A stretch of DNA of 64,000 bases, from positions 667,326 to 731,325 of the forward strand of contig NZ_JACHJQ010000003.1 of NCBI RefSeq assembly GCF_014203735.1. Direction: 5' to 3'. The stretch is from Actinophytocola algeriensis. Its GTDB lineage: Bacteria > Actinomycetota > Actinomycetes > Mycobacteriales > Pseudonocardiaceae. The first letter of the stretch is position 1, and every line of letters begins with the position of its first letter. The position numbers and the translations under genes are program-made. Below are positions 306-14,448 of this stretch, in pieces. The notes under the pieces are model-generated. The model had not been told where the DNA came from and did not search any database. It saw only the letters and a program-made list of their open reading frames with translations.

Positions 306-1061
306 TCAGATCGGCAGGCGGCGGAAGATCGGCCGCGGGACGTGCCGCAGGATCGAGAACAGCACGCGCAGCGGCGCGGGTGCCCACACCAGTTCCTTGC
401 GCTTGGCCACGGCACTGACGACCACGTCCGCGACCTGGTCGGCCGTCGCGGACAGCGGCGCGGGCTTCATGCCCTCGGTCATCTTCGTCTTCACGAACCC
501 GGGCCGGACCACGGTGACCGAGATGCCGTCACCCCGCAGCGCCTCGCCGAGACCGAGGTAGAAGCCGTCCATGCCGGCCTTCGTCGACCCGTACACGAAG
601 TTCGAGCGGCGGACCCGCTCCCCGGCGACCGAGGACAGCGCGACCACGCGGCCGTGCCCCTGCCTGCGGAGGCGCTCCGCGAGCAGCACACCGACCGACA
701 CCGGAGCCGTGTAGTTGACCTGCGCCAGCTCGACCGCGCGGCCGTGGTCCTGCCACGCCTGCTCCGCGTCGCCGAGCAGGCCGAACGCGAGCACCGTGAT
801 GTCGATGTCGCCGTCGCCGAACGCCTTGTCCAGCACGGCGGCGTGCGAGTCGAAGTCCAGCGCGTCGAACTCCACGGTGGACACCGTGGCGCCCGCGGCG
901 CGCAGGTCGTCGGCGGCCTTGTCGAGGCGCTCGGAGGGCCGCGCGGCGAGCACGACCCGCAGCGGGCGGCGCTTCGCGTACTTCGCGGCGACCGCCAGGC
1001 CGATCTCCGACGTGCCGCCCAACAGCAGCAGCGACTGGGGGTTCCCGACCGCGTCGATCAC
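306..1061 (-). CDS. dprE2: Decaprenylphosphoryl-2-keto-ribose reductase DprE2
   Basis: A 251-aa short-chain dehydrogenase. With DprE1 it epimerises decaprenylphosphoryl-ribose to decaprenylphosphoryl-arabinose, the only known donor of arabinofuranose for cell-wall arabinan, at the cytoplasmic membrane. The N-terminal Rossmann motif is visible as LLLLGGTSEIGLA (residues 11-23). The catalytic Ser and the Tyr-x-x-x-Lys appear as SSVAGE and YGSTKAG. Length matches the mycobacterial protein (Rv3791, about 254 aa). The GTG start at 1061 overlaps the dprE1 stop (GTGA), so the two are translationally coupled in the order dprE1-dprE2. Identity rests on both the sequence and the neighbour. Confidence 0.93.
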   Translation of the reverse strand: MIDAVGNPQSLLLLGGTSEIGLAVAAKYAKRRPLRVVLAARPSERLDKAADDLRAAGATVSTVEFDALDFDSHAAVLDKAFGDGDIDITVLAFGLLGDAEQAWQDHGRAVELAQVNYTAPVSVGVLLAERLRRQGHGRVVALSSVAGERVRRSNFVYGSTKAGMDGFYLGLGEALRGDGISVTVVRPGFVKTKMTEGMKPAPLSATADQVADVVVSAVAKRKELVWAPAPLRVLFSILRHVPRPIFRRLPI

Positions 1062-2398
1062 GACAACTCCAACCTTCTCGACATGTCCGAAGCGAACTTT
1101 CCTTCTGGGTCAACGGAAGCGCGGACCTTGCGCCACTCGTCGAGGCGCGGGTACCCGCGCGCGATGACCTCGGGCGTCGCGCGGGACTCCTTCGCCAGGT
1201 AGTGCCGTCCGCCCGCGGCGAGCACCAGCTCGTCCAGCTCCTCGCACAGCTCGTGCACGCCCGCGCCGACCGGCAGGTCGACGCACAACGTCCAGCCCTT
1301 CATGGGGAAGGACAGCGGCGCGCGGTTGCCGTCGCCGAAGCGCTTGAGCACGTTCAGCGCGGAGACCTTGCCGGTCTCGGTCATGCGCCGGACCGTGTGC
1401 CGGATGACGTCCTCGGCGCCGAACGGGACCACGTACTGGTACTGCAGGAAGCCGTGCGGCCCGTACCCGCGGTTCCACTCGCCGAACATGTCCAGCGGGT
1501 GCAGGAACTGCGTGATGTTCTGGACCGCGCCCATCTTCGTCGGCGACTTGCGGTACCAGAGCTCGCTGAACACCCGGCCGGTCACCTTGTTGAGCAGCCC
1601 GGGCGGGAACAGGTCGGGGACGACCAGCAGCTGCGGCGCCTCGAACCTGAGCGGGTGCCTGCGGCGTTTCGCCGGGAGGTCGTCGAGCGTGGCGTGGTTG
1701 GCGCGGGTGAGCAGGCCGCGGCCGAGGTGCGGCCCGGTGGTGACGGCGTCGAACCACGAGACGGACTCGACGTACTTCTCGTCGTCCACGCTCTGGCGCG
1801 CCATCAGCTCGTCGAGGCTGCCGAGCTGCTCGGTGTCGACGAGGAAGTACGCGGTCTCGACGTGGTTGAGGTGCAGGGTCGCCCTGAGGACGACACCGGT
1901 CAGCCCCATGCCGCCGACGGTGGCCCAGAAGAGGTCGTCGGCCGGGGTGAGGGTGGCGACCTCCCCGTCGGCGGTGAGCAGGTCGAGTTCGCTGATGTGG
2001 TCGCCGAAGCTGCCCTCGACGTGGTGCGCCTTGCCGTGGATGTCACTCCCGATCGCGCCGCCGACCGTGACCTGCCGGGTGCCAGGCAGCACCGGGAGCC
2101 ACAGCCCGAACGGCAGCAGCGCACGCATCAGGGTGTCGAGCGAGACCCCGGCGTCGACGTCCACCGTGCCGGCTTCGGCATCGACCCGGTGGATGCGGTT
2201 CAACGCGGTCATGTCGATGACCGTGCCGCCCGCGTTCTGCGCCGGGTCGCCGTAGCTGCGGCCCAGCCCGCGGGCGATGACGCCGCGCGGACCGGCGTGT
2301 TTCACGGCCTCGGCGATGGCCCGGACGTCGGCGGTGTGGACCACCTGCGCGGTCGTGGGGGCGGTGCGGCCCCAGCCTGTGAGCTTTTGTGGCTTCAC
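1058..2398 (-). CDS. dprE1: Decaprenylphosphoryl-beta-D-ribose 2-oxidase DprE1
   Basis: A 446-aa FAD-dependent oxidase (mycobacterial DprE1 is 461 aa) that catalyses the first half of the epimerisation giving decaprenylphosphoryl-arabinose. The FAD-binding segment is visible near residues 34-50 (ARGLGRSYGDPAQN), and the C-terminal half carries the conserved ALNVLKRFG and FASDMSRRLEL blocks. The cysteine that benzothiazinone drugs attack in mycobacteria (Cys387, in GWNICVDFP) is conserved here as Cys ~372 in GWTLCVDLP. The open frame extends much further upstream, but homology begins at the GTG 2398 (VKPQKLTGWGR). That start sits 7 nt after a -10-like TACCCT, suggesting a leaderless transcript. 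Confidence 0.94.
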   Translation of the reverse strand: MKPQKLTGWGRTAPTTAQVVHTADVRAIAEAVKHAGPRGVIARGLGRSYGDPAQNAGGTVIDMTALNRIHRVDAEAGTVDVDAGVSLDTLMRALLPFGLWLPVLPGTRQVTVGGAIGSDIHGKAHHVEGSFGDHISELDLLTADGEVATLTPADDLFWATVGGMGLTGVVLRATLHLNHVETAYFLVDTEQLGSLDELMARQSVDDEKYVESVSWFDAVTTGPHLGRGLLTRANHATLDDLPAKRRRHPLRFEAPQLLVVPDLFPPGLLNKVTGRVFSELWYRKSPTKMGAVQNITQFLHPLDMFGEWNRGYGPHGFLQYQYVVPFGAEDVIRHTVRRMTETGKVSALNVLKRFGDGNRAPLSFPMKGWTLCVDLPVGAGVHELCEELDELVLAAGGRHYLAKESRATPEVIARGYPRLDEWRKVRASVDPEGKFASDMSRRLELS

Positions 2399-2443
2399 CG
2401 CACCGAGGGTAACCGGGTGCCCGGGGGCTCCTACACTGGCTCC
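2399..2443. promoter_or_regulatory. Divergent leaderless promoters of dprE1 and the gtrA-type gene
   Basis: The 45-bp gap between two divergent GTG starts holds two -10-like hexamers. One is TACACT at 2432-2437 (plus strand, 6 nt before the GTG at 2444). The other is TACCCT, read on the minus strand at 2411-2406, 7 nt before the GTG at 2398. Neither gene has a ribosome-binding site, and the spacing puts transcription starts on the start codons. No clear -35 box is seen. The two promoters occupy the same DNA, so they probably interfere with each other. Confidence 0.6.
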
Positions 2444-2851
2444 GTGACTGCCGTGGACGCCCCGCCGCGACTGGTGAGCCAGCTCGCGCGGTTCGTGCTG
2501 ATCGGCGGGTTCTGCGCGCTGGTCGACTTCGGGGTCTACCAGGGGTTGCTCGCCCTGGACCTGTGGGTCCACCTCGCCAAGGCGGTCAGCTTCGTTGCCG
2601 GGACCACCACCGCGTTCTTCCTGAACCGGCGGTTCACCTTCGCCGCCGGACGGGGCGGGGTCGGGCAGGTCGGCGGGTTCGCCCTGCTCTACACGGTGAC
2701 GTTCTTCGTGAACGTCGGTGTCAACGCGTTGATGTTGCACCTGTTGCCGTCGTTCTCGTGGCGGATCACGGTCGCCTGGGTGGTGGCCCAGGGGGTTGCC
2801 ACGGTGATCAACTTCGTGATGTTGCGGACCGTGGTGTTCCGGGTCCGCTGA
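2444..2851 (+). CDS. GtrA-family membrane protein (Rv3789-like)
   Basis: A 135-aa polytopic membrane protein with about four hydrophobic segments. It carries the family signatures FVLIGGFCALVDFGVYQ near the N-terminus, AFFLNRRFTF in the middle and ATVINFVMLRTVVFR at the end. GtrA proteins are thought to move or present lipid-linked sugars. The mycobacterial relative Rv3789 lies next to dprE1 and has been linked to arabinan assembly through AftA. Here it is divergent from dprE1 rather than co-directional, but the neighbourhood is the same, so a role in arabinogalactan synthesis is likely. Confidence 0.85.
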   Translation: MTAVDAPPRLVSQLARFVLIGGFCALVDFGVYQGLLALDLWVHLAKAVSFVAGTTTAFFLNRRFTFAAGRGGVGQVGGFALLYTVTFFVNVGVNALMLHLLPSFSWRITVAWVVAQGVATVINFVMLRTVVFRVR

Positions 2852-3325: not shown

Positions 3326-4231
3326 CTAGAAGCGGAAGAAGCGTTCCTTGCGCCCCTGGCGAACCAGTTTGAGCCACTGGAAGAACGCCTTCGGGTCGCG
3401 CTTGGTGCCGATGAAGTACAGGCCGAACCGCACGAGCTCCAGCATGCCGATCTTGCGCAGGCCCGGCTGTGACAGCAGGTAGCCGCGGTTGCGGTACGTG
3501 TAGTACCGCTTGACCTCGTTCTCCGGGTCCTGTGCGTGCAGCCTGCCGCCGAGCATGGGCTTGAACTCGTCGGAACCGTCCGGGTGCAGGTACGCCACCT
3601 TCAGGCTCGTGCCGAACCGCAGTCCCGACCTCGTCAGGCGGCGGTGGATCTCCACCTCGTCGCCGCGGAAGAACAGGCGGTAGTCCGGGACGCCGATGAC
3701 GTCCAGGGCGGACGCGCGGAACAGGGCGCCGTTGAACAGCGACGCGATGCCGGGCAGGAAGTCCGTGCCCAGCTCCGCGGCGCTCCGCTTCCACGTCAGG
3801 CCGCGGCGCAGGGGGAAGGCGAGGCGGTCCGGGGTCTCGATGTTCGACACCACCGGGCTGATCTCCGCCAGGTTCCGCTTCTCGGCCTCCGCGAGCAGCA
3901 CTTCCAGCACGTTCTCGTCGGCCGGGCGGCCGTCGTCGTCGGCGCACCAGACCCACTCGGCACCCATGGACAGGGCGTGCAGCATGCCCAGCGCGAACCC
4001 GCCCGCGCCGCCGAGGTTCCGGTGCGACGCCAGGTAGGTCGACGGCACCGGGCAGCTCTCGACGATGTCCCGGACCGGGTCGTCCGGGCCGTTGTCGACC
4101 ACCACGAGGTGGTCCGGGGGCCTGGTCTGCGCGCCGATCATCTTCAGGGAGTCGGCGAGCAGCTCCCGGCGGTGGCGGGTGACCACCACGGCCACCACCG
4201 CGTTCGCGGGCAACTGCTCATCGGCACCCAT
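3326..4231 (-). CDS. glfT1: Galactofuranosyltransferase GlfT1
   Basis: A 301-aa family-2 glycosyltransferase that adds the first galactofuranose residues to the rhamnosyl-GlcNAc-PP-decaprenyl linker, starting galactan synthesis on the inner face of the membrane. The GT-A fold motifs are visible: VVVTRHRREL at the start, VVDNG near residue 45, and the metal/nucleotide-binding ADDDG at 97-101. The stretches HRNLGGAGGFALGMLHAL and LPGIASLFNGALFR closely match my memory of mycobacterial Rv3782. Its ATG shares one base with the stop of the upstream ABC gene, so wzm, wzt and glfT1 form one operon. Confidence 0.92.
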   Translation of the reverse strand: MGADEQLPANAVVAVVVTRHRRELLADSLKMIGAQTRPPDHLVVVDNGPDDPVRDIVESCPVPSTYLASHRNLGGAGGFALGMLHALSMGAEWVWCADDDGRPADENVLEVLLAEAEKRNLAEISPVVSNIETPDRLAFPLRRGLTWKRSAAELGTDFLPGIASLFNGALFRASALDVIGVPDYRLFFRGDEVEIHRRLTRSGLRFGTSLKVAYLHPDGSDEFKPMLGGRLHAQDPENEVKRYYTYRNRGYLLSQPGLRKIGMLELVRFGLYFIGTKRDPKAFFQWLKLVRQGRKERFFRF

Positions 4232-5049
4232 CAGGCCTCGCCGCTCTTTGTCGTCAGTGCCGGCTCGATGCCCAGGCGCTGGAGCGTCTCCGAGCTCATG
4301 TTCGCGAACGGGTCCTTGCCCTTGTACGCGGTGATGACCTCGCGCAGGGAGCCGTGCTGTTTCATGTGACCCTCGTCCATCCAGATGGCCGTGTTACACA
4401 GCTCGAACAATAGGTCGTCCTGGTGCGAGGCGAACACCAACATGCCGGAGCGCTTCACGAGATCCACCAGGCGGGTGCGTGCCTTCGCGAGGAACGCCGC
4501 GTCGACCGCGCCGATGCCCTCGTCCAGCAGCAGGATCTCCGGGTCGATCGACGTGACCACGCCCAGCGCGAGGCGGACGCGCATGCCCGTGGAGTACGTC
4601 CGCAGCGGCATCTGCAGGTAGTCGCCGAGCTCGGTGAACTCGGTGATGTCGTCGACCCGCTTCTCCATCTGCTTGCGGGTCATGCCGAGGAACAGGCCGC
4701 GGATCATGATGTTCTCGAGGCCGGAGATCTCCGGATCCATGCCGACGCCGAGGTCGAACACCGGCGCGACCTTGCCGACGATCCGCGACGAGCCCCTGGT
4801 CGGCTCGTAGATGCCCGCCAGCAGCCGCAGCAGCGTCGACTTGCCCGCGCCGTTGTGGCCGACGAGCCCCACGCGGTCGCCTTCCTTCAGCGACAGCGTG
4901 ATGTCGTGCAGTGCCTCGATGATCGGCACCTTCTGCTCGGTGCCGATCTTGCCGCCGACCTTGCCGAGGACGGCCTTCTTCAGGGAGCGGGTCTTCGCGT
5001 CGAAGATCGGGAAGTCGACCGAGGCGTCCCAGACGTTGATGCTGACCAT
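4231..5049 (-). CDS. wzt: ATP-binding subunit of the galactan exporter (Wzt/RfbE type)
   Basis: A 272-aa ABC ATPase. It has a Walker A at residues 64-72 (GHNGAGKST), a signature in YSTGMRVRLALG (in place of LSGGQ, as in Wzt proteins) and a Walker B in EILLLDEGIGAVD. With the Wzm permease it flips the lipid-linked galactan precursor across the membrane, as Rv3781/Rv3783 do in mycobacteria. There is no C-terminal carbohydrate-binding domain, so export should not require a modified chain end. It ends one base into glfT1 and starts 17 bp after wzm. Confidence 0.9.
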   Translation of the reverse strand: MVSINVWDASVDFPIFDAKTRSLKKAVLGKVGGKIGTEQKVPIIEALHDITLSLKEGDRVGLVGHNGAGKSTLLRLLAGIYEPTRGSSRIVGKVAPVFDLGVGMDPEISGLENIMIRGLFLGMTRKQMEKRVDDITEFTELGDYLQMPLRTYSTGMRVRLALGVVTSIDPEILLLDEGIGAVDAAFLAKARTRLVDLVKRSGMLVFASHQDDLLFELCNTAIWMDEGHMKQHGSLREVITAYKGKDPFANMSSETLQRLGIEPALTTKSGEA

Positions 5050-5065: not shown

Positions 5066-5980
5066 TCAGACCCAGTAGGAAACGCGCGAACGGTAGTTGC
5101 GCATGGCCACGAAGGCCAGGCCCCACCCCACAACGGTAAACCCGCCGACGACCGCCCAGTGGTGCCAACTCTGCTCGTTGCCGATCAGCGGCGCGCGCAG
5201 CAGCTGCACGTAGTGGTAGAGCGGGTTCAGCTCGGCGATCAGCACCTTCCAGTCGCTGTCACCCGAGCCGGGCAGGCGCTGCGTGAGGATGTCGGTGGTC
5301 CACACGATCGGCGTCATGAAGAACAGCAACGAGATCAGGCTGTTGATGACCTGGGGGATGTCGCGGTAGCGCGTGGAGATGATGCCGAAGAGGATCGCGA
5401 CCCACCCGCCGTTGACCGCGAGCAGCACGAACGCGGGAATGGCGAGCAGGATGCCGAAACCGATGCCCGGCTGCGGGTTGCCGCCGTCGGTGATCGTGTA
5501 GTCCGACGTGGTCAGCGAGCCCCAGAAGATGACGAGGATGACCACGTACACGAGGAGGTTGTGGGCGAACATCAGCGTGAGCCGCCACACCGTGCGCAGT
5601 GCGTACACGGTCAGCGGCGCGGGAAGGTGCTTGATGAGACCTTCGTTGCGGATGAAGGTGTCCGTGCCCTCGGTGATGCACCCGTTGATGAAGTTCCACA
5701 CGATGAAGCCGACCGTGATGTACGGCAGGAAGGTCGGGATCGTCGCCTGGAACAGCTGGGAGTAGAGCAGACCGAGCCCGATCGCGGTGATGGCCATCGA
5801 CAGCGTGATCCACAGTGGTCCGATGACCGACCTGCGGTAGCGCTGTTTGATGTCCTGCCACCCGAGATGCCCCCACAGCTCACGCTGTTTGAAGCCCTCG
5901 ACGATGTCCTCCCGCGCACGCGACCAGCTACGGGTCGAGGGGGGAGGTGGGGGTGCCTGCTCCTGCTCGGCAGCGCTCAT
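5066..5980 (-). CDS. wzm: Membrane subunit of the galactan exporter (Wzm/RfbD type)
   Basis: A 304-aa ABC-2 type permease with about six hydrophobic helices (for example LWITLSMAITAIGLGLLYS, LLFFMTPIVWTTDIL). A short Pro-rich cytoplasmic N-terminus (EQEQAPPPPPSTRS) precedes the family motif ELWGHLGWQDIKQRYRRSVIGPLW. The start was set at the ATG 5980: the frame is open further upstream, but that extension has no homology and would run into the leader of the divergent gene. It is the first gene of the wzm-wzt-glfT1 operon, divergent from the GT29-like gene 130 bp away. Confidence 0.9.
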   Translation of the reverse strand: MSAAEQEQAPPPPPSTRSWSRAREDIVEGFKQRELWGHLGWQDIKQRYRRSVIGPLWITLSMAITAIGLGLLYSQLFQATIPTFLPYITVGFIVWNFINGCITEGTDTFIRNEGLIKHLPAPLTVYALRTVWRLTLMFAHNLLVYVVILVIFWGSLTTSDYTITDGGNPQPGIGFGILLAIPAFVLLAVNGGWVAILFGIISTRYRDIPQVINSLISLLFFMTPIVWTTDILTQRLPGSGDSDWKVLIAELNPLYHYVQLLRAPLIGNEQSWHHWAVVGGFTVVGWGLAFVAMRNYRSRVSYWV

Positions 5981-6110: not shown

Positions 6111-6770
6111 ATGGTCGACGTCGCCCCTGTGCAGAGCGTCATGCGCACGCTCATTGACGTCTATGCCGAACACCCGGAACCACGGACCGTCGCGGTCGTC
6201 GGCAACATGCCGCTGCCCGCGGACGAGGAGCGGGCCAAGGCCATCGACGCATGCGACCTGGTGTTCCGGGTCAACGGGTTCGTCACGGACGACCCTGGTG
6301 CCGCCCCGACTGTGGGCAGTCGCACACACGTGGTGGTGTTCAACCGTGCGCTGCGCGCCACCAAGTACGTGTTCGAGAACTACCGCAGGCGGCTGTACCT
6401 CATGGTCGAGCCGGGCCGTCTGCACTGGGAACCGGACAACCTGCCCGGCTGGTGGCCGGCGGACCTGGGGCTCGTGCCGGTCAACAACGCCGAGGTGACG
6501 CTGCCGCTGTCGGACGCGCTCGGCCTGCCGAGCCGCACCGAGGGCACGTGGTCGACGACCGGCACGATGGCCGCCTGGATCGCACGGACCTGCTATCCGG
6601 AGGCTGAACTCCTGCTGACCGGGTACTCGTTCATCGACGACCCGAACCAGACGCACTGGATGCACGCCGCCGGTGACTCCTGCATCGTCGGGCCCGAGCA
6701 CCAGATCGCCGCCGAGGGGCGGCTGCTCGACTCGTGGACCAAGACCGGCCGCACCAGGCTGCTTCGCTGA
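6111..6770 (+). CDS. Sialyltransferase-like (GT29-type) glycosyltransferase
   Basis: A 219-aa soluble protein with the layout of GT29 enzymes. A motif like sialylmotif L runs from residue 27 (VAVVGN) through ID-x-x-D and FRVNGF (52-57) to VGSRTH (68-73). A motif-S-like block has TTGTM (149-153) and LLLTGYSF (167-174). H197 and E202 lie in HQIAAEGRLL, where the family has its last motif. GT29 enzymes use CMP-sugars, and the neighbours make a CMP-nonulosonic acid, so this is the best candidate for the transferase. The acceptor is unknown. A -10-like TAACTT (6097-6102) lies 8 nt before the ATG, suggesting a leaderless or very short 5' end. The GT29 call is from motif reading alone. Confidence 0.72.
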   Translation: MVDVAPVQSVMRTLIDVYAEHPEPRTVAVVGNMPLPADEERAKAIDACDLVFRVNGFVTDDPGAAPTVGSRTHVVVFNRALRATKYVFENYRRRLYLMVEPGRLHWEPDNLPGWWPADLGLVPVNNAEVTLPLSDALGLPSRTEGTWSTTGTMAAWIARTCYPEAELLLTGYSFIDDPNQTHWMHAAGDSCIVGPEHQIAAEGRLLDSWTKTGRTRLLR

Positions 6771-6780
6771 GGGAAACACA

Positions 6781-7254
6781 TTGCGCAACAACGGTTTTGA
6801 GGGTCTCCGCACGCTGTTCGGGGCCCGTCCGGTCGTGTCGGACCGGATCAAGCGGCTGATCGACTTCCGGATCAACGAGCGCATCCCGGCCGAGCGCCTC
6901 GAGGAGTACTACCGGACCGTAGACCGGCTCGCGCACGACCACACCGAGGTCGTGGAGGACATGCGCAGACGGATCAACGACCTCGAGCGCCGCTTCAACG
7001 AGGTCGACAAGATCCAGCGCTGGACGCACAACGAGCTCGAGCGCATCATCCCGCAGGTCGCGTCGCAGGAGTCCCAGCTCGAGTCGCTGCGCGAGAAGAT
7101 CGCCGCGGTGCCGGTCGGCGACCAGCCGCAGATCGACGAGTCCCGCACGCTGATCGACGAGATCCGCCGGGAGCACAGCCAGATCCGGGTGCGCCTCACC
7201 GCGGTGGCCCAGTACGAGGACCGCCTCCGCAAGCTCGAAGATCGCGCGGAGTAG
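6781..7254 (+). CDS. Coiled-coil protein co-transcribed with the GT29-like gene
   Basis: A 157-aa hydrophilic protein that I cannot assign to a family. From about residue 30 to the end it is charged and heptad-rich (EVVEDMRRRINDLERRFNEV, SQLESLREKIA, YEDRLRKLEDR), predicting a long coiled coil; there is no membrane segment. The TTG start at 6781 is preceded by GAGGGA at a good distance and lies only 10 bp after the GT29-like stop, so the two are one operon. It may be a scaffold or partner for the glycosyltransferase, but that is inference from position only. Confidence 0.7.
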   Translation: MRNNGFEGLRTLFGARPVVSDRIKRLIDFRINERIPAERLEEYYRTVDRLAHDHTEVVEDMRRRINDLERRFNEVDKIQRWTHNELERIIPQVASQESQLESLREKIAAVPVGDQPQIDESRTLIDEIRREHSQIRVRLTAVAQYEDRLRKLEDRAE

Positions 7255-7405
7255 CCGTCAGGGCCCGGACATCACGTTCCGTTGCCATTCACAGTTTAAC
7301 GTTCAAGTGGGAATTGTTGACTGGTTGTCTCCATCGGTCAACTCTGTTGCCTGTTACTCCATTCGTGGACCCTGATGAGTGGGCACAGGCGCGGAGGTCG
7401 GGGTC

Positions 7406-7627
7406 ATGGTGGACGTCCAGTGGTGGTTATCTGCGTACGACAACCGGGTGCACGCGTTCGGCAACGAGGAAGCCGGCCGCGATTTCGGGGAAGCACTGTG
7501 TGAGCACTGCGTACCGAACAACAAGATCTCCTGCACCGACGACGGCGAACGATGTCTCGCGTGCTTGCTGATCTTCGGTGACCTGCTCGCGGACACCTTG
7601 GGAGAGGCCAACTGGCGCGCGTCCTAG
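7406..7627 (+). CDS. Small cysteine-rich hypothetical protein
   Basis: A 73-aa protein with ATG 7406 preceded by GGAGG. Five cysteines, including CEHC and CLAC (CxxC pairs about 20 residues apart) with another Cys between, suggest a metal-binding knuckle. The N-terminus is acidic and aromatic (MVDVQWWLSAYDNRVH). There is no signal peptide. The function is unknown. It sits between the GT29-like/coiled-coil pair and pseI, with its own 150-bp upstream gap. A leaderless-type promoter for pseI begins immediately after its stop, so it is probably not co-transcribed with pseI from the same start. Confidence 0.6.
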   Translation: MVDVQWWLSAYDNRVHAFGNEEAGRDFGEALCEHCVPNNKISCTDDGERCLACLLIFGDLLADTLGEANWRAS

Positions 7628-7633
7628 GCCCGG

Positions 7634-7639
7634 TACGTT
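7634..7639 (+). promoter_or_regulatory. -10-like box of pseI, probably leaderless
   Basis: TACGTT lies 6 nt before the pseI ATG (7646), the same arrangement as at 2432 and 17437. There is no Shine-Dalgarno sequence between. The -35 region is not recognisable. Confidence 0.5.
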
Positions 7640-7645
7640 GGGCCC

Positions 7646-8695
7646 ATGCGTGAAGTCAGGATCGGCAAGCACACGATCGGCGCGGACCACCGGCCGTTCG
7701 TCATCGCCGAGATGTCCGGGAACCACAACGGTGACCTGGACCGTGCGCTGGCGATCGTCGACGAGGTCGCCAGGTCCGGTGCGCAGGCGCTGAAGCTGCA
7801 GACCTACCGCGCCGACACGATCACCATCGACGTCGACGCGCCCGCCTTCCGCATCTCCGACGACCACTCGCTGTGGGGCGGGGAGAACCTCTACTCGCTG
7901 TACGAGAAGGCCCACACGCCGTGGGAGTGGCACGCGCCGATCTTCGAGCGCGCCGCCCAGCAGGGCCTCACCGTCTTCTCCAGCCCGTTCGACCCGACCG
8001 CCATCGACCTGCTCGAGTCGCTCGACGCGCCCGCCTACAAGATCGCCTCCGCCGAGATCGTGGACCTGCCGCTCGTCGAGCTGGCCGCCCGGACCGGGAA
8101 ACCGCTGGTCATCTCCACCGGCATGGCGAACGTCGCCGAGATCCACGCCGCCGTCGAGACCGCCCGCCGCGCGGGCAACGACCAGCTGGTCGTCCTGGGC
8201 TGCACCGCGTCCTACCCGGCCGATCCGGCCGACAGCAACCTGCGGGGCATCCCGCTCATCCGCGACACGTTCGACGTGGTCCCGGGCCTGTCCGACCACA
8301 CCATGGGCATCGGCGTGCCGGTCGCCGCGGTGGCGCTCGGGGCGTGCGTGATCGAGAAGCACGTGACGCTCAAGCGCGCCGACGGCGGCGTGGACAGCGA
8401 GTTCTCGCTGGAGCCCCTGGAGCTGGCCGCGCTGGTCACGGAGACCGAGCGGGCCTGGCAGGCACTCGGCACGACCCGCATCGGCCCGAAGGACAGCGAG
8501 CGCGAGGTCAGCAGGCTGCGGCGGTCGCTGTGGGTGGTCGAGGACGTCGCCGAGGGTGACGAGGTGACGGCCGCGAACGTCCGGTCGATCCGGCCGTCAG
8601 GTGGGCTCGCCCCCGCCGACCTGGGGACCGTGCTGGGCCGCCGGTTCCGCCAGGCCGCGCCGAAGGGGACCCCGCTCACCTGGGACCTGGTCTAG
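7646..8695 (+). CDS. pseI: Pseudaminic acid synthase PseI
   Basis: A 349-aa enzyme of the NeuB superfamily that condenses phosphoenolpyruvate with a 2,4-diacetamido-trideoxy-altrose to give pseudaminic acid. The barrel begins with FVIAEMSGNHNGDLDRAL. The Pse-type signature SLWGGENLYSLYEKAHTPWEWH separates it from NeuB and LegI. FSSPFDPTA, AYKIASAEI, STGMA, GLSDHT, EKHVTLKRADGGVDSEFSLEP and RRSLWVVEDV follow in the expected order. The C-terminal 60 residues are a SAF (antifreeze-like) domain. The length is normal. All other pathway steps are encoded within 7 kb. Confidence 0.9.
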   Translation: MREVRIGKHTIGADHRPFVIAEMSGNHNGDLDRALAIVDEVARSGAQALKLQTYRADTITIDVDAPAFRISDDHSLWGGENLYSLYEKAHTPWEWHAPIFERAAQQGLTVFSSPFDPTAIDLLESLDAPAYKIASAEIVDLPLVELAARTGKPLVISTGMANVAEIHAAVETARRAGNDQLVVLGCTASYPADPADSNLRGIPLIRDTFDVVPGLSDHTMGIGVPVAAVALGACVIEKHVTLKRADGGVDSEFSLEPLELAALVTETERAWQALGTTRIGPKDSEREVSRLRRSLWVVEDVAEGDEVTAANVRSIRPSGGLAPADLGTVLGRRFRQAAPKGTPLTWDLV

Positions 8696-8708
8696 GCGTT
8701 CTCTTCCC

Positions 8709-9239
8709 GTGCTCTGGCCACCTGCCCCGTTGCGGACCGAACGGCTCGTGCTCCGCGAGTCGGAGGCCCGGGACCGTGCGGCGTTCATCGAGCTGTTCGC
8801 CTCGCCGGAGGTGCGCACCTACCTCGGTGGTCCTCGACCGCGTGCCGAGCTCGAACGCGCGGTGCCCGAGGTGCCCGGCCGGCGTCCCGGCGTTTTCGTC
8901 GCCGACCTCGACGGCGCGATGATCGGCATCATCACGCTCGACCGGCGCGCCGCGGAGCGTCCGGGCCACGTCCACCCGGACGCCGGGGAGACCGAGCTCG
9001 GCTACCTGTTCCTGCCGGAGGTGTGGGGACGCGGGTACGCCGCCGAGGCGTGCGCCGCGGCACTCGGGTGGTTCGCCTGCGAGCGTCCGGGCGAACCGGT
9101 GGTGCTCTGCACCCAGACCGCCAACGACCGCGCGGTGCGCCTCGCGGCGAAGCTGGGGTTCACCGAGGTGGAGCGGTTCGAGGAGTTCGGCGCCGAGCAG
9201 TGGTTCGGCGTGTGGTCCCCGGTCACGCCGTCCGATTGA
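8709..9239 (+). CDS. GNAT acetyltransferase, RimJ/RimL-like
   Basis: A 176-aa acetyltransferase starting at GTG 8709, 13 bp after pseI and probably in the same operon. It shows the usual order LRTERLVLRESEARDRAAFIELFASPEV, a beta-strand core GYLFLPEVWGRGYAAEAC (acetyl-CoA pyrophosphate loop R/Q-x-x-G-x-G/A) and NDRAVRLAAKLGF. The substrate is not evident. The PseH step is already covered by the domain fused to PseG, so this may modify the sugar further or act on something unrelated. Confidence 0.75.
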   Translation: MLWPPAPLRTERLVLRESEARDRAAFIELFASPEVRTYLGGPRPRAELERAVPEVPGRRPGVFVADLDGAMIGIITLDRRAAERPGHVHPDAGETELGYLFLPEVWGRGYAAEACAAALGWFACERPGEPVVLCTQTANDRAVRLAAKLGFTEVERFEEFGAEQWFGVWSPVTPSD

Positions 9240-9245
9240 GCCAGG

Positions 9246-9329
9246 TTATCCACAGGTTTGAATCCCGCAAGCGCTTGCTGACACACACGTTGTCCACAGG
9301 CCGGGATGTTGTCCACAGGGTTGTCCACA
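9246..9329 (+). promoter_or_regulatory. Cluster of four DnaA boxes
   Basis: TTATCCACA at 9246-9254 and TTGTCCACA at 9290-9298, 9309-9317 and 9321-9329 are four exact matches to the bacterial/actinobacterial DnaA box, all on the same strand within 84 bp. They lie at the junction of two convergent genes. There is no dnaA, dnaN or AT-rich unwinding region near, so this is not oriC; a DnaA-titrating or regulatory cluster is more likely. Confidence 0.75.
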
Positions 9330-10010
9330 GGCCAGCTGTGCGAGCCGTTCGCGGGCGTAGTGCGGCTCGACCAGCCAGCCGTTGGCGGCTTCCCACGCGT
9401 TGACGGCGGCGTGGGCGGCCGGTGGGAGGTCCAGGCCCGGGATGTCCGCGAGGTCGAGCCACGGGTGGTCGACGCGGGCCTCGTCCCAGTCGAGGAAGCC
9501 GACGCGGTCGCCGTCGACGCGGATGTTCGCGGCGCACGGATCGCCGTGGACGACCGTCGACGGGCCGTCGAGGGCCCGCCACGCGGCTCGGCAGGTCTCG
9601 ACGGCCTCGGGTGGCATCGCGGTCAGGTCGACGTCGCCGCCGCGGTCGGTGGTCAACAGGTCGCGGGTGCCGGGGAAGTCCGGGCGCGGCGGCCAGCCCG
9701 CGGTCAGCTCGTGGAGGCGCCGCAGCTCGGCCACCACCGGCGCCCAGTCGGTCGGCTCACGGCCGGGGAGCCAGCGCTGCACGACCACACCGTCCACCTG
9801 CGCCCGCCCGTCCGCACGCACCACCTCGGGCACGAGGAAACCGTGGCGCGACAGGTGGTCCAGCAGGTCCAGCTCCCAGTCGAGGGACGCGACGGATCGG
9901 CGGGATCGGCGTGCCACGAGGCCGCCTTCGAGACGGAACACCTCGTTGCGGTGCCCACCGAGCCGCTCCAGCACCGTGGGAGAGCCCCACGGGGCGAGGT
10001 CCAGGGTCAT
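9246..10010 (-). CDS. Aminoglycoside-phosphotransferase (APH)-fold kinase
   Basis: A 254-aa small-molecule kinase. The catalytic loop VVHGDPCAANI has H155, D157 and N162. The metal-binding motif is FLDWDEA (D174, D176), and an N-terminal nucleotide-binding lobe contains a Val-Ala-Arg core strand (GLVARRS) where many relatives have Lys. The substrate is unknown: members phosphorylate antibiotics, choline or sugars. The start was set at ATG 10010, since upstream codons fall in the short repeats. The last ~25 residues are Cys/Gly-rich and are encoded by the DnaA boxes, one of which supplies the stop codon, so the tail is probably not functional. Confidence 0.78.
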   Translation of the reverse strand: MTLDLAPWGSPTVLERLGGHRNEVFRLEGGLVARRSRRSVASLDWELDLLDHLSRHGFLVPEVVRADGRAQVDGVVVQRWLPGREPTDWAPVVAELRRLHELTAGWPPRPDFPGTRDLLTTDRGGDVDLTAMPPEAVETCRAAWRALDGPSTVVHGDPCAANIRVDGDRVGFLDWDEARVDHPWLDLADIPGLDLPPAAHAAVNAWEAANGWLVEPHYARERLAQLACGQPCGQHPGLWTTCVSASACGIQTCG

Positions 10011-10030
10011 GTTCGCTCGCAACCCTTGCT

Positions 10031-10092
10031 CGGCATCACTGTTCGCTCCGCAAGCTCCGCTCGGCATCACTGTTCGCTCCGCAAGCTCCGCT
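10031..10092. repeat. 31-bp unit in perfect tandem duplicate
   Basis: 10031-10061 and 10062-10092 are identical copies of a 31-bp unit containing CATCACTGTTCGCTCCGCAA. A shorter degenerate copy precedes them (10008-10030). The second unit supplies the last codons and the stop of pseC. A related sequence recurs at the pseB-pseC junction near 11222. Confidence 0.85.
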
Positions 10093-11218
10093 CAGGAGAG
10101 AAGAACTTCCTCACCAGCTCGATCACCCGGTCCACGTAGTCGTCCGACAGGTCCGGGAACAGCGGCAGCGACAGCTCCTCCGCGTAGAACCGCTCCGCGT
10201 TCGGGCACATCCCGCGCTGGTAGCCGAGGTCGGCGAACACCGGGTGCCAGTACACCGGGATGTAGTTCACCTGCACCCCGATCCCACCCGCACGCAGGTG
10301 GTCGAACAGGTCGCGGCGGCGCCCGTCCAGCACCCGCAACGGGTACAGGTGCCACATCGGGTCCGCGCCCGGCAGCGTCACCGGCGTCCGAACGCCGTCC
10401 ACATCGGACAGCCCGGCGGTGTAGCGGGCGTGGATCTCCGCGCGCCGCTCCTTGAACCACGCGAGCCGCCGCAGCTGGCTGGAACCCAAGGCGCACAACA
10501 CGTCCGGCAGCCGGTAGTTCAGGCCGAACTCGTGCACCTCCTGGTGCCAGCCGCCCTCGTCCGGGTACCGCATCCGCGCCTTGTCGCGCACCAGCCCGTG
10601 GTTGCGGAACTGCGCCGCCCGCCGCGCGAGGTCCGGGTTCGGCGTCGCGACCGCGCCGCCCTCGGCGGTCGTCAGGTTCTTGGTGGGGAAGAAGGAGAAC
10701 GTCGTCAGGTCCGCCAGAGCGCCGACCGGGCGGCGTTGCCACGTGCCGCCGATCGAGTGCGCCGCGTCCTCCAGGAGCAGCGCGCCGCCGTCGTGCGCGA
10801 CCTTGAGCAGCTCGTCGACCTGCACCGGGTGCCCGGCGTAGTCGACCGAGGACACCACGCGTGTCTTCGCGGTCATCGCCGCCGCGGCGGCCTCCGGCAG
10901 GAGGTTCCCGGTCTCCGGCGACACGTCCGCGAACACGACCGTCGCGCCCTGCTGGATCGCGGTCGCGGCGGTCGCGACGAACGTCATCGGCGCGCACACG
11001 ACCTCGTCGCCCTGGCCGATGCCCGCCGCCGCGTACGCGACGTGCAGAGCCGCGGTCCCCGAGGTCACCGACACCGTCGGCACGCCGCCGACCAGCGCGG
11101 ACAGGTCCGCCTCGAACCGGCGCACGGCCGGTCCGGTGGTCAGCCAGTCACCGCGCAGGACCTCCGCGACCGCGGCGATGTCCTCCTCGACGATCGACTG
11201 CCGTCCATACGGGAGCAC
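10067..11218 (-). CDS. pseC: UDP-4-keto-sugar aminotransferase PseC
   Basis: A 383-aa PLP-dependent aminotransferase of the DegT/DnrJ/EryC1 group, second step of pseudaminic acid synthesis. It has the family start LPYGRQSIVEEDIAAVAEVL, SGTAALH, the acidic pair in LLLEDAAHSIGG and the PLP lysine in FFPTKNLTTAEGGAV. GTG 11218 is the start best matching family length. An ATG at 11356, overlapping the pseB stop by 8 nt, would add 46 low-complexity residues encoded by short-repeat DNA. That longer form is possible through coupling with pseB. The C-terminal tail ERSLRSEQ also derives from repeat DNA. Confidence 0.88.
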   Translation of the reverse strand: MLPYGRQSIVEEDIAAVAEVLRGDWLTTGPAVRRFEADLSALVGGVPTVSVTSGTAALHVAYAAAGIGQGDEVVCAPMTFVATAATAIQQGATVVFADVSPETGNLLPEAAAAAMTAKTRVVSSVDYAGHPVQVDELLKVAHDGGALLLEDAAHSIGGTWQRRPVGALADLTTFSFFPTKNLTTAEGGAVATPNPDLARRAAQFRNHGLVRDKARMRYPDEGGWHQEVHEFGLNYRLPDVLCALGSSQLRRLAWFKERRAEIHARYTAGLSDVDGVRTPVTLPGADPMWHLYPLRVLDGRRRDLFDHLRAGGIGVQVNYIPVYWHPVFADLGYQRGMCPNAERFYAEELSLPLFPDLSDDYVDRVIELVRKFFSPERSLRSEQ

Positions 11219-11221
11219 GTC

Positions 11222-11348
11222 CGCATCACTGGTCGCTGCGCTCCTCCGCTCAGACGCCGTCTTCCCTCCTACGCTGCTCGCTCGCCCGTGGCCGGGCTCC
11301 CTGCGCTGCTCGTCAGTCCAGACGACGCCCGCTCCGTCGCTCCGCTCC
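11222..11348. repeat. Short-repeat DNA between pseB and pseC
   Basis: The stretch between the pseB stop and the homology start of pseC is built from CGCTGCGCTCC-like and GCATCACTGGTCGC-like words. The latter resembles the 31-bp units at 10031-10092. It stays open in the pseC frame but encodes only Arg/Ser/Glu-rich low-complexity sequence, consistent with a repeat insertion that pushed the two genes apart. Confidence 0.5.
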
Positions 11349-12332
11349 TCACCCATACTGCGCCACCAACGCCCGCAGGTCATCGTCCGAGAGCCACAGG
11401 TCGTTGGTGTCCGACCGGTACGCGAAGCCCTCCGGCACCGCCTGGCCCTCGGCGGGCGGCTCGTAACCCCAGCCCGCGATGTGCGGCATCACGACGTACC
11501 GGTCGTCGAGCAGGAGCGTCCTGCGCGAGTCGTCCGGGGCGATCATCTCCTCGTGGAGCTTCTCGCCAGGCCGGATGCCGACCTCCTTCATGGGGCTGTT
11601 CGGCGCGATCACGCGGGCCAGGTCCACCAGCCGCATGCTGGGGATCCTCGGCACGTACAGCTCGCCGCCGTGCATCGAGTCGAACGAGTTGACCACGAAC
11701 TCCACGGCCTGCGGCAGCGTGATCCAGAAGCGGGTCATGCGCAGGTCGGTGATCGGCAGCGCCTCACCGCGGTCGGCCAGCGACTTGAAGAACGGGATGA
11801 CCGACCCGCGTGAGCCCATCACGTTGCCGTACCTGACCACCGAGAACCGGGTCGGGTGACCCGCCGCGTAGTGGTTGCCGGAGATGAACAGCCGGTCCGC
11901 GCACAGCTTCGTCGCGCCGTACAGGTTGATGGGGCTGGACGCCTTGTCGGTCGACAGCGCCACGACCTTCTGGATGCCGCAGTCGATGGCCGCCTCGATC
12001 ACGTTCTGCGACCCGGTGATGTTGGTCTGCACGAACTCGAACGGGTTGTACTCGGCCGTGTCGACCTGCTTGAGCGCGGCGGCGTGCACCACGTAGTCCA
12101 CGTCGTGCATGGCGCGCTCGAGGCGCCTGCGGTCGCGGACGTCGCCGATGAACCAGCGCAGCCGGGGGTCGTCGCCGAACATCTGGCGGGCCTCGTACTG
12201 TTTCAGCTCGTCGCGGGACAGGATCACCAGACGCCGTGGGTCCAGGTGCTTCAGGGCGTAGTCGATGAACGCCTTGCCGAAGGACCCCGTCCCGCCCGTG
12301 AGCAGGATGCCAGCCCCTTCGAGCAGCGCCAT
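11349..12332 (-). CDS. pseB: UDP-N-acetylglucosamine 4,6-dehydratase (inverting) PseB
   Basis: A 327-aa short-chain dehydrogenase/epimerase that opens the pathway, converting UDP-GlcNAc to the 4-keto-6-deoxy-L-arabino sugar. Residues 6-20 hold the NAD(P) motif LLTGGTGSFGKAF. VALSTDKASSPINLYGATK contains the catalytic TDK and the Tyr-x-x-x-Lys. GNVMGSRGSVIPFF and RMTRFWITLPQAVEFV are diagnostic of PseB/FlaA1-type short dehydratases. A strong GGAGG lies 8 nt before the ATG. The upstream gap of 41 bp is shared with the divergent pseF. Confidence 0.93.
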   Translation of the reverse strand: MALLEGAGILLTGGTGSFGKAFIDYALKHLDPRRLVILSRDELKQYEARQMFGDDPRLRWFIGDVRDRRRLERAMHDVDYVVHAAALKQVDTAEYNPFEFVQTNITGSQNVIEAAIDCGIQKVVALSTDKASSPINLYGATKLCADRLFISGNHYAAGHPTRFSVVRYGNVMGSRGSVIPFFKSLADRGEALPITDLRMTRFWITLPQAVEFVVNSFDSMHGGELYVPRIPSMRLVDLARVIAPNSPMKEVGIRPGEKLHEEMIAPDDSRRTLLLDDRYVVMPHIAGWGYEPPAEGQAVPEGFAYRSDTNDLWLSDDDLRALVAQYG

Positions 12333-12373
12333 GGTCTTACCTCCGCGGTCTGGGTCGTCACCGGTGCGCCATC

Positions 12374-13111
12374 ATGGCACCCGTGCGAGTCAACGCGGTC
12401 ATCCAGGCACGGTTGTCCTCCACCCGGCTGCCCGGCAAAGTGCTCCGGCCGCTGGGCGGCAGGAGCGTGCTGAGCTGGGTCATCCGCGCCGCCCAGGAGA
12501 CGCACAACCTCGACACCGTGATCCTCGCGACGTCCGACGACCCCACGGACGACCCGGTGGCCGACGAGGCCGCCCGCTGCGGTGCCGTGGTCGTCCGTGG
12601 CCCGCTGGACGACGTGCTGGCCAGATACGTGAAGGCCGTCCGCGAGCACCCGTGCGACGCGGTGGTACGGCTCACGGCCGACTGCCCGCTGCACGACCCG
12701 GCGGTGATCGCGCAGGTCGTGGCCGTGTGGCGGGCCGACCCGACGCTGGACCACGTGTCGAACTTCGTCGTGCGCCGCCACCCGCGCGGCCTGGACACCG
12801 AGCTGGTACGGGTCGCGGTGCTGGAGGAACAGGCACGCATCGCGACCGGCGGCCACCGCGAGCACGTGACGTCGAACATCTACACGCAGCCCGACGTGTA
12901 CCGGTGCGGCGGCGTGGTGCCCGGGGTGGACAACTCCGACCTGCGCGTCACGCTGGACACCGAGGAGGACGCGAAGCTCCTGGAAGGGGTCGTGGCGGAG
13001 CTCGGCGACGAGGTGCCGTCGTGGCAGGCGCTGGTCGCGCTGCTGCGGTCCCGGCCGGACCTGGTGGCGCTGAACGCGGACGTCGAGCAGAACACCACGC
13101 CCACGACATGA
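12374..13111 (+). CDS. pseF: CMP-pseudaminic acid synthetase (PseF/SpsF-type cytidylyltransferase)
   Basis: A 245-aa nucleotidyltransferase with the CTP-binding start VNAVIQARLSSTRLPGKVLRPLGG and the catalytic RLTADCPLHDP. It resembles SpsF-type cytidylyltransferases, which replace the NeuA-like PseF in many Gram-positive pathways. It activates the nonulosonic acid as its CMP form, the donor a GT29-like enzyme would need. It overlaps the next gene by ATGA (13108-13111), so the two are translationally coupled. The symbol is by pathway context; SpsF would be equally fair. Confidence 0.82.
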   Translation: MAPVRVNAVIQARLSSTRLPGKVLRPLGGRSVLSWVIRAAQETHNLDTVILATSDDPTDDPVADEAARCGAVVVRGPLDDVLARYVKAVREHPCDAVVRLTADCPLHDPAVIAQVVAVWRADPTLDHVSNFVVRRHPRGLDTELVRVAVLEEQARIATGGHREHVTSNIYTQPDVYRCGGVVPGVDNSDLRVTLDTEEDAKLLEGVVAELGDEVPSWQALVALLRSRPDLVALNADVEQNTTPTT

Positions 13112-14448
13112 CGAGGCTGCTGCTGCGCGCGGACGCCACCCCGTCGACGGGGGTCGGTCACCTGTCCCGCTGCGTGGCGCTGGCGACGGCGGCCCGGTCC
13201 CGCGGCTGGGACGTGGCGCTGTGCGGATCGTTCACCGCGGGCCGGTGGCTGCTCGGATCGCTCCCGGTCGTGGCTTCTCCCGAGCCCGCTGACGCGGTCG
13301 TGGTCGACCACTACGGCATCGGCGAGTTCAGTGCCGACGGTCTCGTGGTGTCCATGGAGGACGGCGGGTTCGGGCGGCGGCGCGCGGACATCGTGGTGGA
13401 CGCGAACCTGTACGCGGCACCGCGCCCGGACGACGGGTCGCCGGTGGTGCTGAGGGGGCCCGCGTACGCGCCGCTGCGTGCGGAGATCCGGGCGGCACGG
13501 ACAGCACGGACGGCACGGACGGCACAGCGCGCGGGTTCGGTGCCGCCGAAGGTCGTGGTCGTGATGGGTGGCGGCGCGGCCCCGTCGTCGGTGGCGGCGG
13601 CGCTGTCCGCGCTGCGTGACACGGGGGTGCCCGCTGAGGTGGTGGCGATCTCGGCCGCGCCGGTGCCGGGTTTCGAGGTCGTGCCGCCGACCCCCGAGCT
13701 GCCCGCGTTGTGCGCGTCGGCGGACCTGGTGGTGAGCGCGGCCGGCGTGACGTTGCTGGAGCTGTGCTGCATCGGGGTGCCGACCGCGCTGGTGCGGATC
13801 GCGGACAACCAGGCGGCCGGCTATCAGGCGGCGGTGGAGCAGGGCGTGGCGGCGGGCCTCGGCGCCGACCCGCGATCGCACGTGCCGGTGCTGCGGACGC
13901 TGCTGCGGGACGCCGCCGCGCGGAAAGCGCTGGGGGACAAGGCAAGGACGACTGTCGACGGCAGGGGAGCGGACCGCGTCCTCGACGCGATGGGCTTCGA
14001 CCCGACAGTGCGTGCCGCCACCGGGGCGGACGCGGCGCTGCTGCTGTCGTGGCGGAACGACGAGGAGACCCGCCGCTGGTCACGCACCACGGACCCGGTC
14101 TCCCCGGCCGACCACGAGGCGTGGCTGTCCCGCGTGCTGACCGATGACGACCGATGGCTGCTGGTGGCGGAGCACGACGGCCGTCCGGTGGGGACGGTGC
14201 GTTTCGACCGCGCGGGCGGGGCGTGGGAGGTCAGCATCACGGTGGCGCCCGCAGCACGCGGCCGGAGGCTGGCGGTACCGATGCTGCTGGCGGCCGAACG
14301 GGCACTGGGCCCGGCGGTGATCCGCGCGAACGTGCACGGTGAGAACGCCGCGTCGCTGGCCCTGTTCCGCCGCGCGGGCTACCGGCCGGTGCCGTCCGTG
14401 TCGCGCTCGGAGTGGCACTGGCTGGAGAAATCTCCCTCTCAGGAGTGA
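13108..14448 (+). CDS. pseG: PseG-PseH fusion: UDP-sugar hydrolase plus 4-amino N-acetyltransferase
   Basis: A 446-aa two-domain protein. Residues 1-~290 are PseG, a GT-B-fold hydrolase removing UDP from 2,4-diacetamido-altrose; GVGHLSRC with His18 matches the catalytic-base loop, and SADLVVSAAGVTLLELCCIGVP matches the C-terminal nucleotide site. Residues ~295-446 are a GNAT domain of PseH type (LLSWRNDEETRRWS, VAPAARGRRLAVPMLLAAE, NVHGENAASLALFRRAGY) that would acetylate the 4-amino group. In Campylobacter and Helicobacter these are separate proteins. A Thr-Ala-Arg tandem (TARTARTA) lies within the PseG part. The domains act at consecutive steps, so fusion makes sense. Confidence 0.85.
   Translation: MTRLLLRADATPSTGVGHLSRCVALATAARSRGWDVALCGSFTAGRWLLGSLPVVASPEPADAVVVDHYGIGEFSADGLVVSMEDGGFGRRRADIVVDANLYAAPRPDDGSPVVLRGPAYAPLRAEIRAARTARTARTAQRAGSVPPKVVVVMGGGAAPSSVAAALSALRDTGVPAEVVAISAAPVPGFEVVPPTPELPALCASADLVVSAAGVTLLELCCIGVPTALVRIADNQAAGYQAAVEQGVAAGLGADPRSHVPVLRTLLRDAAARKALGDKARTTVDGRGADRVLDAMGFDPTVRAATGADAALLLSWRNDEETRRWSRTTDPVSPADHEAWLSRVLTDDDRWLLVAEHDGRPVGTVRFDRAGGAWEVSITVAPAARGRRLAVPMLLAAERALGPAVIRANVHGENAASLALFRRAGYRPVPSVSRSEWHWLEKSPSQE

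Follow-up and report, generated by a model that had tools for sequence, protein, structure and literature searches.

A probable GT29-type glycosyltransferase and its coiled-coil partner between pseudaminic acid genes and a putative galactan exporter in Actinophytocola algeriensis

We analysed a 64,000-nucleotide stretch (the window; C3:667326-731325) of the 9.73-Mb genome of Actinophytocola algeriensis, in which genes for the synthesis of pseudaminic acid (Pse) lie beside a gene for a small protein resembling the sialyltransferases of family GT29. G and L numbers below are our handles for genomes and loci. The genes of this cassette are the following:

6111..6770, plus strand: GT29-type protein, 219 amino acids, proposed cytidine monophosphate (CMP)-nonulosonate transferase (PF00777, 23.6 bits)
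6781..7254, plus strand: coiled-coil partner, 157 amino acids, start codon TTG assumed (heptad signal)
7646..8695, plus strand: PseI, pseudaminic acid synthase (TIGR03586, 463 bits)
10067..11383, minus strand: PseC-type aminotransferase (TIGR03588, 402.8 bits; DegT Pfam family, 365.7 bits)
11349..12332, minus strand: PseB, inverting UDP-N-acetylglucosamine (UDP-GlcNAc) 4,6-dehydratase (TIGR03589, 489.2 bits)
12374..13111, plus strand: CMP-sugar synthetase (cytidylyltransferase; PF02348, 86.6 bits)
13108..14448, plus strand: PseG-PseH fusion (TIGR03590, 72.6 bits; TIGR03585, 41.1 bits; GNAT domain)

PseB and PseI both exceeded the cut-offs of their NCBIfam models (407.75 bits for TIGR03589 and 340.25 bits for TIGR03586, respectively). 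PseC and the two parts of the fusion are named after their best matches, which lay under the cut-offs (423.5 bits for TIGR03588, 153.55 for TIGR03590 and 93.1 for TIGR03585); the true start of PseC is probably further in, near 11218-11233, and the gene call spans 10067-11218. The cytidylyltransferase matched Pfam CTP_transf_3 and is no close PseF (TIGR03584, 28.4 bits against a cut-off of 205.7). With PseC, PseG and PseH thus below their cut-offs, the original prediction that the Pse genes and a CMP-sugar synthetase are found within 7 kb was confirmed, the distance from PseI through the end of PseG-PseH being 6.8 kb (7646-14448). Pseudaminic acid would be the likeliest product of the cassette, given that the dehydratase PseB is of the inverting kind and that the PseI match is to an equivalog model. 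The enzyme steps up to the CMP-sugar equal those given in passages of PMC7439481 for pseudaminic and legionaminic acid pathways of the Helicobacter pylori and Bacillus type; unlike those pathways, the window has a fused PseG-PseH and a cytidylyltransferase that is far from PseF.

The 219-amino-acid protein matched PF00777 against a cut-off of 23 bits, over residues 24-86, which represent the motif L part only. When its own genome was searched in six frames the match was again over the cut-off (23 bits), and 14 control genomes gave none over it. PF00777 was found at E<=0.1 in 15 of 26 aligned relatives, for which no other Pfam family was listed. Searching the PDB with the single sequence gave ST8Sia III at E 0.39, and a profile of the 26 relatives gave ST6Gal1 (E 0.013) and ST8Sia III (E 0.081), neither of which is significant. 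Blocks resembling motif S (TTG...TGYSF), motif III (H185) and motif VS (H197...E202) were seen by eye on comparison with the GT29 domain of a G515 protein described below; aligned to ST8SiaIII, the VS region scored -2.3 bits. An AlphaFold2 model made from 14 sequences (the window protein and those of related loci) was poor, with a predicted local distance difference test (pLDDT) of 49.3 and a predicted template modelling score (pTM) of 0.57. With this poor model human ST6GALNAC2 took ranks 1-6 in Foldseek (best E 8.4e-3) and ST8SiaIII ranks 8, 10 and 11, none of the matches reaching E<=0.001. The GT29-like call, for which a PF00777 search and a structure prediction had been proposed as checks, therefore stands on a match over the cut-off, although that match is marginal and the model poor.

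Relatives of the protein were present in 47 of the 200 genomes of our family sample, with which the named loci referred to below overlap; the gene is therefore no chance open reading frame. The closest named relative, judged by the GT29 protein, was Actinophytocola oryzae (91%). Two decayed copies aside, N32, R53, G151, H185, H197 and E202 were conserved in all 68 of the aligned rows, which include repeats of the same genomes. Since no membrane segment was seen by eye, the protein should act in the cytoplasm. We consider it very probable that the protein belongs to GT29, and expect with equal confidence that it has transferase activity. That the protein shares just motif L with GT29, being non-catalytic or of some other kind, is improbable. 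The short length, marginal Pfam match and poor model would suit this reading, but N32, G151, H185, H197 and E202 are kept in the 68 rows and in six of six proteins of a second family, and their loss (E202 excepted) is confined to genomes in which we found no synthase; GT29 enzymes also take the first six places in Foldseek (none at E 0.001), and the cassette has no other constant transferase. Presumably the window has the GT29-type protein where other pathways use Maf or another of the known Pse transferases.

The gene directly downstream, at 6781-7254, had gone unmentioned in the original prediction, whose GT29 and Pse genes stand. It codes for a protein with a coiled-coil heptad signal; the value for residues 20-110 was reached in 0 of 2000 shuffles and that for residues 115-157 in 10 of 2000. 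It can be seen that this coil gene follows GT29 on the same strand in all 47 genomes, 14-389 bp downstream as measured between match ends, and that the two are separate genes in every one of these genomes and in all six loci of the second family. The coil was found in 48 of the 200 genomes, namely the 47 with GT29 and G103.

On the other side of GT29 lie genes of the cell wall:

5066..5980, minus strand: Wzm-type ABC-2 membrane protein, divergent from GT29, proposed galactan exporter subunit (PF01061)
4231..5049, minus strand: Wzt-type ABC ATPase, 272 amino acids (PF00005)
3326..4231, minus strand: GT2 enzyme read as GlfT1 (PF00535; position and neighbours)
1058..2494, minus strand: DprE1, arabinan precursor pathway (PDB DprE1, E 8.7e-175)
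306..1061, minus strand: short-chain dehydrogenase, probably DprE2 from its place beside DprE1 (PF00106, 98.6 bits)

The names GlfT1, Wzt and Wzm were assigned from Pfam family, gene order and neighbours. Wzm gave a single match in its own genome, and in Wzt the ATPase domain alone was matched by Pfam over the 272 residues. Two GlfT2-family genes are located close together 15-18 kb upstream of the window start (G000:C3:649252-652203) and, along with DprE1 and the GlfT1-, Wzt- and Wzm-like genes, they bear out the claim that arabinogalactan genes are neighbours of the cassette. The 'mycobacterium-like wall' that was proposed with it is half right, because orders such as Pseudonocardiales, according to a passage of PMC6194230, have arabinogalactan without mycolic acids.

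Wzm was found near GT29 in 44 of the 47 genomes (30, 12 and 2 from three neighbourhood comparisons), the largest distance, in L065, being about 4.2 kb and three genes; in G166 GT29 is at a contig edge and was not counted as near Wzm. All 17 named loci have Wzm, Wzt, the GlfT1-like gene, GT29, the coil and Pse genes in a similar order, with Wzt adjoining Wzm in each, and no second glycosyltransferase is constant among the cassette rows. We viewed the Wzm neighbourhoods of 20 of the 153 genomes that lack GT29, and that of G103 besides. Wzm was found in all 20, and a gene of cluster c3 (one member of which matches PF10759, BPA) was called in 18 of these loci; it adjoins Wzm in 10, has one to four genes between in 7 and is nine away in L095, and it was not called in L082 and L084. 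In most GT29 loci the c3 gene comes after the cassette. We conclude that the GT29 cassette is an optional insert near Wzm. Beside Wzm, G103 (L092) has a PseG-like gene, the coil and a member of the pyruvyltransferase cluster, with neither GT29 nor NeuB.

Some further genes were noted at this position. What look like cassette remnants occur near Wzm in L092 (coil and PseG-like gene) and in L081 of G003 (PseG-like gene alone). A gene for a polysaccharide pyruvyltransferase (PF04230 in L073) takes the same place near Wzm in L073, L080, L081, L082 and L092, and likewise occurs in L046 and L048. A gene of cluster c36 (Methyltransf_24 in the L043 member), the N-terminal part of which appears by eye to be coiled-coil, is beside Wzm in L043, L077, L084 and L089; GT29 is absent from three of these loci and present in one. 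The c36 gene could code for an alternative chain-modifying enzyme.

To return to the donor sugar, co-occurrence with pseI had been suggested as a check on the GT29-like gene, and it was borne out: with PseI taken at E<=1e-60, 32 of the 200 genomes had both genes, 15 GT29 only, 4 PseI only and 149 neither (Fisher p 2.6e-21, kinship ignored). Pseudaminic acid as the sole donor was rejected, as 13 of the 15 GT29 genomes without PseI at that threshold have another NeuB-family gene. Indeed, a NeuB-family synthase was present in every one of the 45 genomes whose GT29 is intact, which comprise the 32 with a close PseI, 11 others (G009, G026, G032, G078, G119, G130, G136, G151, G174, G178 and G197) and G017 and G166. 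The four genomes with PseI and without this GT29 (G050, G082, G139 and G154) belong to one genus and have PseI at 68-70%; a GT2 enzyme lies nearby in L068, so another Pse transferase may serve genomes of this type.

Three types of cassette surround the constant GT29-coil pair: Pse genes, NeuC with NeuB, and a short NeuB with a cytidylyltransferase-HAD fusion. In L049 and L054 NeuC scored 360.8 and 356.6 bits (cut-off 235.9) and NeuB 354.2 and 357 bits, under its cut-off of 399.65. L057 and L061 have the short NeuB and a fusion that resembles the PseF, KdsC and 2-keto-3-deoxynononic acid (Kdn)-9-phosphatase models, all below cut-off, and L058-L060 and L062-L065 were put in this type by BLAST and cluster only; judging from these resemblances the type may be called 'Kdn-like'. 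L050 and L052 have Pse genes with a different synthase (342-348 bits for the PseI model, cut-off 340.25). G040 has its Pse cassette and GT29 on separate contigs, the Pse cassette still being beside the c3 gene (L051, L052). A GT29 tree of 62 rows, made by a quick method and leaving out 5 duplicate loci, had two main clades (support 100), with the NeuC state in both; six cassette labels placed on it required 7 changes against 17.4 in shuffles, of which 0 of 200 were as low. Donor cassettes thus differ from species to species around an unchanging pair, from which we conclude that GT29 is linked more closely to the galactan exporter and the coil than to pseudaminic acid.

Natural loss was seen in G172 and G195. 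Their GT29 has lost N32, the stretch containing H185, and H197 (tree branch 0.97); no NeuB was found in either genome, and no Pse marker matched within 20 kb around GT29. Since the two are close relatives this is probably one decay event; a gap of missing sequence is possible. The decayed copies (L066 9616-10281 and L067 9719-10411) keep their reading frame and a match to the neighbouring coil, with no NeuB found, so the coil may do something independent of GT29.

A sample of 298 genomes of the order gave 23 GT29 profile matches, 17 from the family of the window and 6 from a second family, f89. In all six f89 loci the coil is downstream of GT29, and 17 of 17 checked residues are kept in these GT29s. 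GlfT2, Wzm and Wzt are close by in L108-L110, along with Glf in L110, and in L105 and L107 an arabinosyltransferase is about 5-6 kb from GT29, so galactan or arabinan genes are near five of the six. The f89 cassettes are of Pse type in L105, of NeuC/NeuB type in L106 and L107, and of short-NeuB and fusion type in L108; L109 and L110 have only a cytidylyltransferase, at the edge.

In samples from the phylum, the profile found GT29 in 2 of 396 genomes and Pfam found it in 3 of 392, these being the window's own genome, G515 and G445. G515, from another family of the class, has a 775-amino-acid protein that was found by the profile of 26 relatives (E 7.4e-6) and itself matches PF00777 at 44.7 bits; motif S, an HYYD motif and a VS-like block are seen in it by eye, in the same order as in the window protein. 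NeuB is about 3 kb from GT29 in G515, and a NeuB fragment is about 9 kb off, at the stretch edge, in G445. The G515 protein (L096 7161-9488) has a GT group 1 domain behind its GT29 domain and is encoded beside genes for NeuB and a pyruvyltransferase.

The best explanation for these observations, to which we give a probability of roughly 0.6, is that the GT29-type protein is a CMP-nonulosonate transferase acting on galactan. PseB, PseC, PseH, PseG, PseI and the CMP synthetase would make CMP-pseudaminic acid in the cytoplasm, and the transferase, working with the coiled-coil protein encoded directly downstream, would move the nonulosonate onto a lipid-linked glycan at the inner face of the membrane. 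That glycan would most likely be the GlfT1/GlfT2 galactan, with transfer probably preceding export; Wzm-Wzt would then export the modified galactan, which becomes arabinogalactan. Galactan is favoured as the acceptor because the exporter that recurs at these loci is Wzm-Wzt, the system that translocates the lipid-linked product of GlfT1 and GlfT2 in mycobacteria (as stated in passages of PMC10951656). Taken as a whole, the results suggest that the wall galactan carries an acidic nine-carbon sugar, either as a decoration or at its tip.

Several points weigh against this explanation. The choice of acceptor rests on gene neighbourhood, which proves none; in G032 and G017 the GT29 gene is not near Wzm, and L106 of the second family was without GlfT2, Wzm or Emb within its 20 kb. 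The GT29 profile match is marginal and restricted to motif L, and the structure model, itself poor, gave nothing at E<=0.001 in Foldseek. G103 has the coil without GT29, and the four genomes of the L068 genus have PseI without this GT29. Finally, G172 and G195, which show the loss of residues, are close relatives with genomes 91% and 83% complete.

The transferase might instead serve another wall glycopolymer, similar to teichulosonic acids, or a lipid-linked glycan that shares or neighbours Wzm-Wzt. Teichulosonic acids are how nonulosonic acids are known from actinomycete walls, and the Kdn type is the major glycopolymer of Streptomyces coelicolor (passages of PMC7831098); G032 and G017 carry the GT29-coil pair away from Wzm, and in G515 and G445 GT29 is near NeuB with no galactan exporter seen in the fetched stretches, beyond which no search was made. 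Both cases would be an actinomycete wall glycan with a nonulosonic acid, but the Gal-Kdn polymer of Streptomyces is separate, and the passages of PMC7831098 make no link to galactan export genes. The presence of Wzm near GT29 in 44 of 47 genomes, of galactan or arabinan genes near five of six second-family loci, and of no second constant glycosyltransferase in the cassette makes this rather unlikely.

The original prediction had Pse on either a surface glycan or a glycoprotein. The first option gains from the strong link to the galactan exporter. For the second, Pse would be placed in the cytoplasm on flagellin, pilin or another surface protein, and flagellins do bear Pse and related sugars in many bacteria (PMC13317340 and PMC11339370). 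However, flagellin (PF00669) was not found in 19 of 20 GT29-bearing genomes searched, the window's own included, other proteins not having been searched, and no conserved candidate target protein is seen among the cassette rows. We conclude that the flagellar option is weakened and that a protein acceptor is most improbable; flagellin was found in G094 only.

As to what the coil might do if galactan is the acceptor, the fixed GT29-coil pair recalls the CMP-3-deoxy-D-manno-octulosonic acid (Kdo) transferases of Klebsiella, which end ABC-exported chains with coiled-coil rulers (O4 ORF7/GT137 and O12 WbbB; passages of PMC11231755). By this analogy GT29 would, in many Pseudonocardiaceae and in the second family, terminate galactan with a nonulosonate and the coil would be the ruler, with exchangeable, species-specific caps (pseudaminic, N-acetylneuraminic acid (Neu5Ac)-type or Kdn-like). 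We regard this as speculative and rather unlikely. A putative CMP-ulosonate transferase and an extended coiled coil next to Wzm-Wzt are common to both systems; in Klebsiella, however, the transferase is of another family, whereas here the coil is on its own protein rather than in one polypeptide with the candidate terminator, and only the ATPase domain was matched in the 272-residue Wzt.

GT29 had been described to us as best known from eukaryotes and its combination with Pse genes as perhaps undescribed. The first part needs qualifying: passages of PMC5811610 report bacterial GT29 proteins, naming alpha-, gamma- and epsilon-proteobacteria, and that paper nowhere uses the word Actinobacteria. 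The second part holds among the open-access papers listed, whose titles and starts of abstracts showed none on actinobacterial GT29 or on an arabinogalactan nonulosonate, most subscription journals lying outside this search. A nonulosonate and GT29 at a galactan locus are therefore likely to be novel. The window protein resembles CAZy GT29 in its PF00777 match, with motif L by profile and the order of the S-, III- and VS-like motifs by eye, and in its top fold matches (human ST6GALNAC2 and ST8SiaIII, below significance). It differs from known GT29 in being soluble-looking, of 219 residues, actinobacterial, paired with a coil and beside galactan genes, and in its pseudaminic, NeuC/NeuB or Kdn-like donor cassettes.

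If our explanation is correct, arabinogalactan would not be one fixed polymer, and that of many actinomycetes would bear acidic sugars like sialic acid, placed by a relative of the animal sialyltransferases. The regulation of galactan size is described in a passage of PMC10951656 as still being explored, and the question of the size and tip of the galactan exported by Wzm-Wzt would become testable in organisms that do no harm. The history of GT29 would gain an actinobacterial branch, and comparisons could be made among small proteins of GT29 type whose natural donors appear to be of three kinds.

Three genes within the cassette region remain to be mentioned. The GNAT gene at 8709-9239 had no GNAT match among the 17 named loci, and the APH gene at 9246-10010 had APH matches in 2 of the 17; both were set aside. 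A 73-amino-acid protein with Cys pairs, encoded on the plus strand at 7406-7627 of the window, gave no Pfam match at E<=0.01. It has relatives in L032, L033 and L050, with GT29 nearby every time.

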